From: Salegentibacter sp.
GTDB lineage: Bacteria > Bacteroidota > Bacteroidia > Flavobacteriales > Flavobacteriaceae
Length of the DNA stretch: 64,000 nt
Direction of reading: 5' to 3'
Assembly (NCBI GenBank): GCA_024635795.1
Contig: JAGXIH010000016.1
Coordinates: 1 to 64,000, forward strand
The notes below the pieces were generated by a model, which was not told the origin of the DNA, ran no database searches, and saw only the letters and a list, made by a program, of their open reading frames with translations. A program made the position numbers and the translations under genes. Positions 2,321 through 31,131 of this stretch are shown piece by piece (the stretch's first letter is position 1; every line of letters starts with the position of its first letter).

Positions 2321-2392
2321 GGTCCGTTCGTCTAGGGGTTAGGACGCCAGGTTTTCATCCTGGTAACAGGGGTTCGATTCCCCTACGGACTA
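2321..2392 (+). tRNA. tRNA-Glu (anticodon TTC), copy 2
   Basis: Base-for-base identical to the upstream tRNA-Glu; the flanking sequence differs beyond a few nucleotides. It lies 28 nt before the rpsT start, so the upstream promoter probably transcribes tRNA-tRNA-rpsT together and RNase processing releases the tRNAs. The 68-nt spacer contains two small hairpins (ACACT/AGTGT and ACAACT/AGTTGT). Confidence 0.97.
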
Positions 2393-29169: not shown

Positions 29170-29790
29170 ATGAAAATCAGTAAGATTTTAGTTATACTAT
29201 TTCTAGGCTTTTTTGTGTTTACTTCGTGTGAAGATGGAAAGAAAAAAGCTGAAGAAGAAAAAGAAAGTTTAGAAAGGCAAGAAGCAGAACGAGCCGCTGA
29301 ATTGCAGGCCGAAGAAGAACGCATGGAATGGGAAGCAAACAGTATTGCCGCAAAAACTATGGAAGATGATTCACTGAGCTCTTTCTCTGGAGCTTTACAG
29401 AATGCCGAACTTGCGCAAACCTTTACTGAAGAGGAGGGACCATATACTATTTTTGCTCCTACCAATGAGGCATTCGAGAAGGTAGACCAGGCCATTTTGG
29501 ATACTTTAATGAAAAGTGAAAACCGTGAAATGTTAAGCGATGTGCTTAAATATCACGTAGTGGAGGATGAGATCACTGCAAAAGAACTTTCTGAAAGAAT
29601 TGACGAGGGGAATGGTGAATATTCCTTAACTACCTTAACCGGTACTTCGCTTACTGCTCTTAAGAGTGGAGATGATATCCTCCTAAAAGGTGAGAATGGT
29701 AACACCGCTAAAATCACTAAAACTGATTTAGAGGCCTCAAACGGTGTCATTCATCAAATAGATGGGGTAGTGATGCGGAAGAAATCTTAG
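29170..29790 (+). CDS. Fasciclin-domain lipoprotein
   Basis: A 206-aa lipoprotein: signal peptide with FVFTSC (Cys20), a 40-residue Glu/Lys/Ala-rich coiled-coil stalk (about 22-62), then one FAS1 domain (about 65-205) with the H1 motif YTIFAPTNEAFEKV and the H2-like YHVVEDEI, ending GVIHQIDGVVMRK. FAS1 domains mediate adhesion or ligand binding at the surface; the stalk probably holds the domain off the membrane. The ATG at 29170 gives the signal peptide directly. Monocistronic, with a clear terminator downstream. TAAATTTG at 29135-29142 may be its -7 box. Confidence 0.92.
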   Translation: MKISKILVILFLGFFVFTSCEDGKKKAEEEKESLERQEAERAAELQAEEERMEWEANSIAAKTMEDDSLSSFSGALQNAELAQTFTEEEGPYTIFAPTNEAFEKVDQAILDTLMKSENREMLSDVLKYHVVEDEITAKELSERIDEGNGEYSLTTLTGTSLTALKSGDDILLKGENGNTAKITKTDLEASNGVIHQIDGVVMRKKS

Positions 29791-29823
29791 AACTTTGTAA
29801 AATTTACAAAGCTTAAAAATTAA

Positions 29824-29850
29824 AACTACCGGCAATCCGGTAGTTTTTTT
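29824..29850 (+). terminator. Intrinsic terminator after the fasciclin gene
   Basis: AACTACCGG (29824-29832), loop CAAT, CCGGTAGTT (29837-29845), then T to 29850. A perfect 9-bp stem. Confidence 0.88.
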
Positions 29851-29875: not shown

Positions 29876-29913
29876 AAAAAAAAGCTTCATTTCCTGTAAA
29901 GGAAATGAAGCTT
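29876..29913 (-). terminator. Strong intrinsic terminator 3' of the TPP riboswitch
   Basis: On the minus strand AAGCTTCATTTCC (29913-29901), loop TTTACA, GGAAATGAAGCTT (29894-29882) and then seven or eight T. The 13-bp perfect stem makes it one of the strongest terminators in the window. It starts about 30 nt after the riboswitch P1 helix. No coding sequence follows on this strand: the next DNA is the oppositely oriented fasciclin gene. Confidence 0.9.
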
Positions 29914-29943
29914 CTCTAATAAGGCATTCAGCCTCGCTAGATT

Positions 29944-30016
29944 CAATAATTCCTACACTGGGATTATCCAGATCAGGTTATGCGGGTATAATCTCAGCCT
30001 AAGCACCCCGATATTG
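29944..30016 (-). promoter_or_regulatory. TPP (THI-box) riboswitch aptamer, without a downstream gene
   Basis: The minus strand carries the conserved THI-box elements in order: GGGGTGC, GCTGAGATTATACCC, AACCTGATCTGGATAAT and CCAGTGTAGGA, closely matching the E. coli thiM aptamer. P1 is intact: CAATA (30016-30012) pairs with TATTG (29948-29944). The optional P3a arm is absent and P3 is short. TPP binding is therefore expected from sequence. No thiamine gene is present: only a terminator follows, and then a convergent gene. It lies about 100 nt beyond the murB stop on the same strand. Confidence 0.93.
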
Positions 30017-30022
30017 ATATAT

Positions 30023-30030
30023 TAAAGATA
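30023..30030 (-). promoter_or_regulatory. Candidate -7 box directly upstream of the TPP aptamer
   Basis: TATCTTTA on the minus strand matches TAnnTTTG at seven of eight positions. Initiation about 6-7 nt downstream would fall at the first base of P1 (30016). No TTTG is present at the usual upstream spacing, so support is partial. Confidence 0.35.
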
Positions 30031-30117: not shown

Positions 30118-31131
30118 TTAAAATATATTCACTTCGGCTTCCAGCTTTATTCCGAACTCTGAATATATCTTATTCCTGATTTCATGAGAAAGGTCCAGTA
30201 ACTCTTCGCCTGTAGCCTCGCCGTAGTTTACCAGCACCAGCGCCTGGTTTTGATGCACCCCGGCATCGCCTCTGCGGTAGCCTTTTAAACCTGCCCTGTC
30301 AATAAGCCAGCCGGCGGGTACTTTTACTTTGTCTTCATCCACGGGATAAGAAGGGATTTCCGGGAATTTTTCCTGAAGCTTTAAATATTTCTCTCTTCTG
30401 ATAATTGGATTCTTAAAAAAACTTCCACTGTTGCCAAGCACCCGAGGGTCTGGTAATTTAGACTGCCGGATTGCGATTACTGCATTGGAAATATCCTGTA
30501 TGCCCGGTTGGGCTATTTTTTCTTTAACCAACCAATCGTTTATGGCCCCATATCCGGTGTGCAATTTGTGTTGGTTTTTACTCAACCTAAACCTTACCGA
30601 GGTAATGATGTATTCGCCCTTTAATCTTTGTTTGAAAACTGAATTTCTATAACCGAATTCACAATCTTCAGGCTTGAAGTTTACCTCTTCCAGAGTTTGT
30701 ATATGTATTGCGGTGCAGGATTCAAAAACATCTTTCAACTCTACGCCATAGGCACCAATATTCTGAATAGGGGCTGTTCCTACGTTTCCTGGAATTAGTG
30801 AGAGATTTTCAAGTCCGCCGAAGTCATGCTCCAGCGTCCATAGTACAAATTGATGCCAGTTTTCACCGGCATTGGCTTCAACCACAACTTCATTTTTAGT
30901 TTCAGAAATGATCTGTCTTCCGGTTAAGCCAATATGAAGCACTGTTTTGTTAATATCCCGGGTGAGGAGCATATTACTGCCGCCACCCAGGATAAATATT
31001 TCTGATGCATAGGTTTGCTGAAGTGCTTTCCTTAATTCTTCCGAAGAAGAAACCGAAATAAACTTTCTGGCATTTACGTCAATACCAAATGTGTTGTAAT
31101 TCTTTAAAGAGATATTTTCAGAAACCTGCAT
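30118..31131 (-). CDS. murB: UDP-N-acetylmuramate dehydrogenase
   Basis: FAD enzyme reducing UDP-GlcNAc-enolpyruvate to UDP-MurNAc for peptidoglycan. 337 aa, the length of type I MurB (E. coli-like). FAD-binding EIFILGGGSNMLLTRDI is near residue 45; the central IPGNVGTAPIQNIGAYGVEL, catalytic Ser in GNSGSFFKNP (about 230), and AGVHQNQALVLVN (about 295) are all present. Cytosolic. Its start lies 6 nt after the aminotransferase stop. Downstream on the same strand lies the orphan TPP riboswitch. Confidence 0.96.
   Translation of the reverse strand: MQVSENISLKNYNTFGIDVNARKFISVSSSEELRKALQQTYASEIFILGGGSNMLLTRDINKTVLHIGLTGRQIISETKNEVVVEANAGENWHQFVLWTLEHDFGGLENLSLIPGNVGTAPIQNIGAYGVELKDVFESCTAIHIQTLEEVNFKPEDCEFGYRNSVFKQRLKGEYIITSVRFRLSKNQHKLHTGYGAINDWLVKEKIAQPGIQDISNAVIAIRQSKLPDPRVLGNSGSFFKNPIIRREKYLKLQEKFPEIPSYPVDEDKVKVPAGWLIDRAGLKGYRRGDAGVHQNQALVLVNYGEATGEELLDLSHEIRNKIYSEFGIKLEAEVNIF

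Follow-up and report, generated by a model that had tools for sequence, protein, structure and literature searches.

A conserved TPP aptamer with its own terminator and no gene to control in Salegentibacter, and a second gene-less set in 20 other genera of Flavobacteriaceae

Riboswitches that sense TPP belong to the most widespread kinds and are generally regarded as acting in cis. Riboswitch-derived RNAs can also act in trans, as do Listeria SreA/SreB and Rli55. The available text on RZ of S. meliloti describes a further trans-acting RNA, derived from a SAM-II riboswitch as the terminated leader of metZ (PMC9373788), and the accessible part of a report on a predicted class of antisense-acting riboswitches gives 292 cases, with TPP aptamers numbering 83 in antisense against 9,766 in sense orientation (PMC9943018). 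A 2007 survey, in the text available, recorded high-scoring gene-less aptamers and suggested that they might be either trans regulators or fresh orphans (PMC2258182). The F. psychrophilum transcriptome names small RNAs Rfp1-89, none of which is tied to TPP in the accessible part of that paper (PMC9723704); among the open-access matches listed in our literature search (subscription papers and supplements lay outside its scope), none described a TPP aptamer RNA standing alone in Flavobacteriaceae.

The locus described here lies in a stretch of 64,000 nucleotides from a Salegentibacter genome (G000; assembly 61.6% complete), the whole of which is called the window below. The features of the element and its neighbours are as follows.

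30023..30030, minus strand: -7-like box TATCTTTA, kept across copies; putative promoter
29943..30018, minus strand: TPP aptamer, from P1 to P1 (RF00059 match 29933-30020)
30017-30011 (5' strand) and 29949-29943 (3' strand), minus strand: P1, part of the TPP aptamer
29915..29941, minus strand: linker hairpin, from sequence and from folding across copies
29876..29913, minus strand: terminator-like hairpin with 13-bp stem, 6-nt loop and eight-U tract, from sequence and fold
29822..29847, plus strand: terminator of the fasciclin gene, from the generic terminator scan; internal comparison for conservation
29170..29790, plus strand: fasciclin-domain gene (Pfam PF02469), convergent with the element; possible antisense target in an alternative reading
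30118..31131, minus strand: murB (Pfam MurB_C; synteny in 10 genomes), upstream of the element on the same strand

An earlier sequence-only reading had claimed a complete minus-strand TPP aptamer followed by a terminator, with no gene to regulate. Rfam cmscan of the window bears out the first part, with a match to RF00059 (TPP) at 30020-29933 of 62.2 bits (gathering score 54.3, E 8.1e-10) that spans model positions 1-105 of 105. The 13-bp hairpin, ∼30 nt beyond P1, is likewise present as claimed, with arms at 29882-29894 and 29901-29913 and the eight U's at 29883-29876, although the generic terminator scan of the window does not list it, presumably because the stem continues into the U-tract. 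Directly 5' of P1, TATCTTTA agrees with the promoter box TAnnTTTG (PMC7366714, accessible text) at 7/8 positions when n is counted, the figure given previously, and at 5/6 specified bases. No -33 box was found by eye at the element, and the generic promoter scan of the window gave no sigma-70-type promoter there. The predicted RNA from P1 to the U-tract is ∼140 nt. The 161-nt minus strand has a folding energy of -56.4 kcal/mol, whereas shuffled sequences give -33.8 (sd 4.1; z -5.5; 0/200 as low); its computed minimum fold contains the terminator and linker hairpins and lacks the canonical aptamer fold.

On its 3' side the element meets only the convergent fasciclin gene and that gene's own terminator, and so does not occupy the thiamine-gene leader position of TPP riboswitches; the claim that no gene is controlled in cis therefore stands. 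Minus-strand ORFs of 65 and 127 aa do follow the element, and these are antisense to fasciclin; similar frames occur in some relatives, and three have none of at least 45 aa. We rejected a small ORF under cis control because the minus-strand ORFs past the terminator are antisense to fasciclin and vary among genomes, and a short frame starting MKLF in the 3' arm of the terminator because its length and sequence diverge among genomes past the first residues. Elsewhere in the window, two tRNA genes (2181-2252 and 2321-2392, plus strand), 68 nt apart, have equal Rfam scores and the same 72 aligned letters.

As with SreA/SreB, Rli55 and RZ, the product would be a terminated riboswitch RNA that may be a regulator; unlike RZ, which is the leader of metZ, the Salegentibacter element has no cis gene. 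It resembles the gene-less aptamers of the 2007 survey (PMC2258182, available text) in scoring highly without a fitting downstream gene, and differs from them in its conservation across the genus and in being kept once away from its usual neighbours, described below. We put the chances at slightly better than even that the element is a promoter-aptamer-terminator RNA gene of ∼140 nt, probably encoding a TPP-gated trans-acting small RNA. Such a dedicated small-RNA gene would begin with the -7 box, have a TPP-binding aptamer forming the 5' domain of its RNA, and close with its own terminator behind a spacer hairpin. Its probable source would be a transcription-terminating thiM-type TPP leader whose gene was lost, the element having been retained because the RNA itself is useful. 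TPP binding would fold or stabilize the 5' domain of the terminated RNA, and the RNA so altered would then, most likely, pair differently with, or titrate, a target mRNA or protein in trans.

A DNA search of 15 Salegentibacter genomes gave matches in 13, of which 11 are the element; those in G004 and G006 are only short pieces of other TPP leaders, and one match (G001:C29) was left out of the reading of contexts. In 10/15 genomes the element has the same neighbours, lying ∼90 nt behind murB on the same strand and convergent with fasciclin (10/10). In the eleventh carrier, G013, it lies elsewhere, flanked by an APP1-type gene on one side and an M15 peptidase gene on the other, not behind murB and with no fasciclin gene within the 8 kb read; 0/14 other genomes have an APP1-type gene within 1.5 kb before that M15 peptidase. 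The murB-fasciclin interval of the element-free genomes (G002, G004, G006 and G012) and of the outgroup G021 measures 95-154 nt and contains no gene; a thiamine gene at this spot in relatives, which would have spoken against the earlier reading, is thus absent from these five genomes. An exact aptamer pattern was absent from viral contigs.

In a tree of murB plus aminotransferase rooted with G021, both deep clades carry the element. G004 and G006 form a pair (support 99) that branches from within the carriers, a position with support values of 82 and 89; the placement of G012 is weak (support 37). We infer that the element is old in the genus, has been lost at least once and has moved once. 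Because it is lost or absent in 4/15 genomes, it must be dispensable, and because its location is the same in 10/11 carriers, its neighbours could still matter. Of 43 TPP matches examined in the genus, one is the G013 element; the context was fully readable for 39 of the remaining 42, and in 39/39 a same-strand ORF starts within ∼120 nt downstream. thiC was found in 5/11 carriers (one carrier, G000, being an incomplete genome), against 3/4 non-carriers.

Conservation was compared as mean identity between clade A (G000, G003 and G011) and clade B (seven genomes). It was 0.92 for the aptamer, 0.85 for the terminator, 0.71 for the promoter segment and 0.49 for the linker, compared with 0.45 for the upstream flank, 0.37 for the downstream flank and 0.33 for four-fold sites of murB. 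The -7-like box retains TAtnTTT, and the terminator arm GCTTCATTT is identical, in 11/11 copies; the fasciclin terminator in the same interval has nine distinct arms in 10 genomes. The linker hairpin folds in 11/11 copies, with z values between -2.7 and -5.6 relative to base-shuffled sequences. This pattern points to purifying selection. A decaying relic is contradicted by the retention of aptamer and terminator over a divergence at which neutral sites have nearly saturated. Among the points against the small-RNA reading, the regions conserved beyond the aptamer fall within a strong stem and offer no unpaired seed, and the generic scans list neither the terminator nor a sigma-70 promoter.

To place the element among other TPP aptamers we used a covariance model built from it (R1) to search 299 genomes of the family at E 1e-6, and matched 15. 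The best matches outside the genus, in G130 and G209 (81.0 and 74.1 bits), are leaders whose gene is thiM-like by eye, and have terminator arms similar to those of the element. Like such terminating leaders (RF00059), the element has an aptamer above the gathering score, P1 close behind a -7 box and a terminator after it; unlike them, it has no downstream gene, and it shows no clear sign of the antiterminator pairing between the 3' strand of P1 and a terminator arm that G130 and G209 display. Against shuffled sequences this pairing gave p 0.007 in G209 and a borderline p 0.05 in G130, whereas in four orphan copies it was no better than shuffles in 4/4 (p 0.10-0.27), and 3/3 copies of the second set described below were also not significant. 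No convincing P1-terminator antiterminator thus emerged in the four copies, but the test is weak, 6/8 known gene-bearing leaders failing it too, and this weakness limits our confidence in the RNA-gene reading.

The element may accordingly be a thiM-type leader that has lost both its gene and an evident switching helix. The earlier suggestion of a relic thus fits the probable origin, given that thiM-type leaders head the matches from other genera, and fails for decay. TPP aptamers with terminators were also seen to lead a methyltransferase-like gene (L015, L023, L065, L066, L067, L012, L090, L093, L096 and L099); at several of these loci the next gene is ThiL/AIR synthase-like by eye, suggesting a thiamine-linked operon.

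The contacts of the TPP ligand are J3-2 U39-A43, G60, C77 and G78, according to the accessible text of PMC3764141 and PMC7824784. The Salegentibacter element retains J3-2 UGAGA, G60 and G78. C77, a pyrophosphate contact, is replaced by U in three copies (that of the window in G000, and those of G003 and G011), a point against the TPP-gated reading, whereas the remaining eight have C. The TonB-receptor TPP leaders of Salegentibacter (L062, L072-L074, L076, L078-L080 and similar) score 42-51 bits, below the Rfam cut-off, and by eye the canonical C77/G78 junction is missing from them.

The R1 search also matched gene-less TPP aptamers in other genera. A second model, R2, made from four of these loci, matched 41 places in 40/397 family genomes, and we analysed 29 of them, from 20 genera, including the four that had built the model. 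Left out were two places that are the Salegentibacter element and 10 others (a second copy in G222, scoring 80.7 bits, and nine places with scores of 54-66 bits). The two copies in G222 (G222:C1:1999278 and 2062919) are ∼64 kb apart. The loci share a TPP-type aptamer, preceded by a TA..TT box in 28/29, and a near-invariant stem, approximately CAAAGGGAAC/GUUCCCUUUG, with a U-rich tail lies close 3' of it. All 23 loci scanned, out of the 29, match RF00059, seven above the gathering score and 16 below it, so that routine annotation would miss these 16.

Base pairs with changes on both sides number 28/37 overall, 7/7 in P1 and 12/16 in the terminator. The covariation score is 0.298; shuffles give 0.142, and slid structures do not exceed 0.101. 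The alignment was fitted to a model, which biases it in the model's favour. A convergent gene comes next in 22/29 loci and a same-strand gene in 7/29, whether frames of at least 60 or at least 100 aa are counted, the seven not being identical loci in the two counts; the upstream gene is divergent in 10/29. The 29 next genes of at least 100 aa fall into 15 kinds by Pfam (22 match, seven match nothing), including release factor, RecG, chloride channel, glutamate racemase type, HisI/HisE type and fatty acid hydroxylase, and 0/29 belong to a thiamine family. Eight genera have more than one locus; in four of them (g28, g101, g148 and g154) two species have different genes downstream, and in the other four (g14, g54, g74 and g97) the downstream neighbour is shared. 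thiC occurs in 3/29 genomes, against 82/397 in the family sample; neither these nor the Salegentibacter counts give a clear signal of a link with thiamine auxotrophy.

Nine of the 29 loci (L088, L141, L143, L144, L145, L150, L155, L158 and L160) end no more than 3 nt from the stop codon of the convergent gene, and eight begin 44-47 nt past the stop of the upstream gene.

J3-2, the pyrimidine-binding motif, is UGAGA in 27/29 second-set loci, but no more than 4/29 have G where the alignment places the pyrophosphate contact G78. The second set may therefore recognize its ligand differently, although by eye the TonB-type TPP leaders of Salegentibacter deviate at this aligned position too, which calls for caution. 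The second-set model scores the window element at 60.7 bits, no better than the 62.2 bits of the Rfam TPP model, and so gives no support to common descent of the element and the second set as free-standing RNAs. The idea that the window element derives from that set likewise finds no support past the aptamer.

A free-standing small RNA fits best, because the unit is conserved, because the G013 copy has another location and because a gene-less set exists in 20 genera. The sequence-only reading had offered a free-standing TPP-responsive small RNA as one of three possibilities, and these same observations favour it, expression and ligand response being predictions. To the 2007 view of gene-less aptamers our analysis adds that one of them is old and conserved in a genus and that a second form exists in 20 other genera; carriage by named Salegentibacter strains makes the small-RNA question testable.

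Two alternatives fit the geometry of the window and do not fit G013. In the first, which we regard as unlikely, the element would be an antisense-acting riboswitch in which TPP sets termination, low TPP allowing read-through antisense to fasciclin and lowering its expression. We know of no link between fasciclin and thiamine, which counts against this. Such riboswitches are known or predicted (accessible text of PMC9943018); like the ubiG SAM riboswitch of C. acetobutylicum, the pocR cobalamin riboswitch of Listeria and the predictions of that paper, the element lies on the 3' side of a convergent gene and has a terminator, in all 10 syntenic genomes, and 22/29 second-set copies also face a convergent gene. 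Unlike them, it is kept in G013 with no fasciclin within 8 kb, and neither a metabolic link nor an antiterminator is evident, 4/4 copies lacking a clear one in the pairing test that 6/8 gene-bearing leaders also fail; moreover, the convergent genes of the second set come from unrelated families.

Quite unlikely, in our estimate, is that aptamer and terminator form the 3' end of the aminotransferase-murB mRNA, with TPP tuning its stability or giving rise to a processed RNA. The position close behind murB in 10 genomes would suit such a 3'-UTR element, already proposed from the sequence, and the hairpin would be the first strong terminator past murB, so that its geometry in the window is compatible. 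The proposal does less well elsewhere: the G013 copy is not behind murB, the upstream gene is divergent in 10/29 second-set loci, and the -7 box is better conserved than the sequence before it. If the second set is analogous, it speaks against both the antisense and the 3'-UTR readings.

We think it improbable that the terminated RNA is a ligand-controlled decoy that titrates a protein, TPP altering what it displays; a compact, nearly fully structured RNA whose most conserved non-aptamer part is a stem would be suited to this, but it has no known protein partner. That the element is a functionless mobile piece, or what is left, under no selection, of a thiM-type leader, is very improbable given aptamer and terminator conservation where murB four-fold sites are 0.33 identical, notwithstanding the thiM-type best matches outside the genus and the element's absence from 4/15 genomes.

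Returning to the small-RNA gene, we suggest tentatively, as something that may well prove wrong, that Flavobacteriaceae possess a class of free-standing, ligand-gated TPP-aptamer small-RNA genes, in which the second set may respond to a different thiamine compound (thiamine itself, thiamine monophosphate or a precursor) and act in trans on the thiamine economy of the cell. Beyond the family the set appears not to extend. Model R3 matched 50 of 395 class-wide genomes, with only G167, a family member, scoring strongly (109.5 bits) and the rest at 54-69 bits. From 28 out-of-family loci taken, L169, L173, L179 and L181 were left out as being near contig ends, and 22 of the 24 classified have a same-strand next gene. 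The exceptions are L183, with a convergent gene, and L194, with none, although a frame seems to start inside its matched stretch. L182 and L183, from other families of the class, are TPP-like aptamers with GGGGAGAUU replacing GGGGUGC, plus a terminator; one of the two precedes an OsmC-like gene, by eye, and the other faces a convergent gene.
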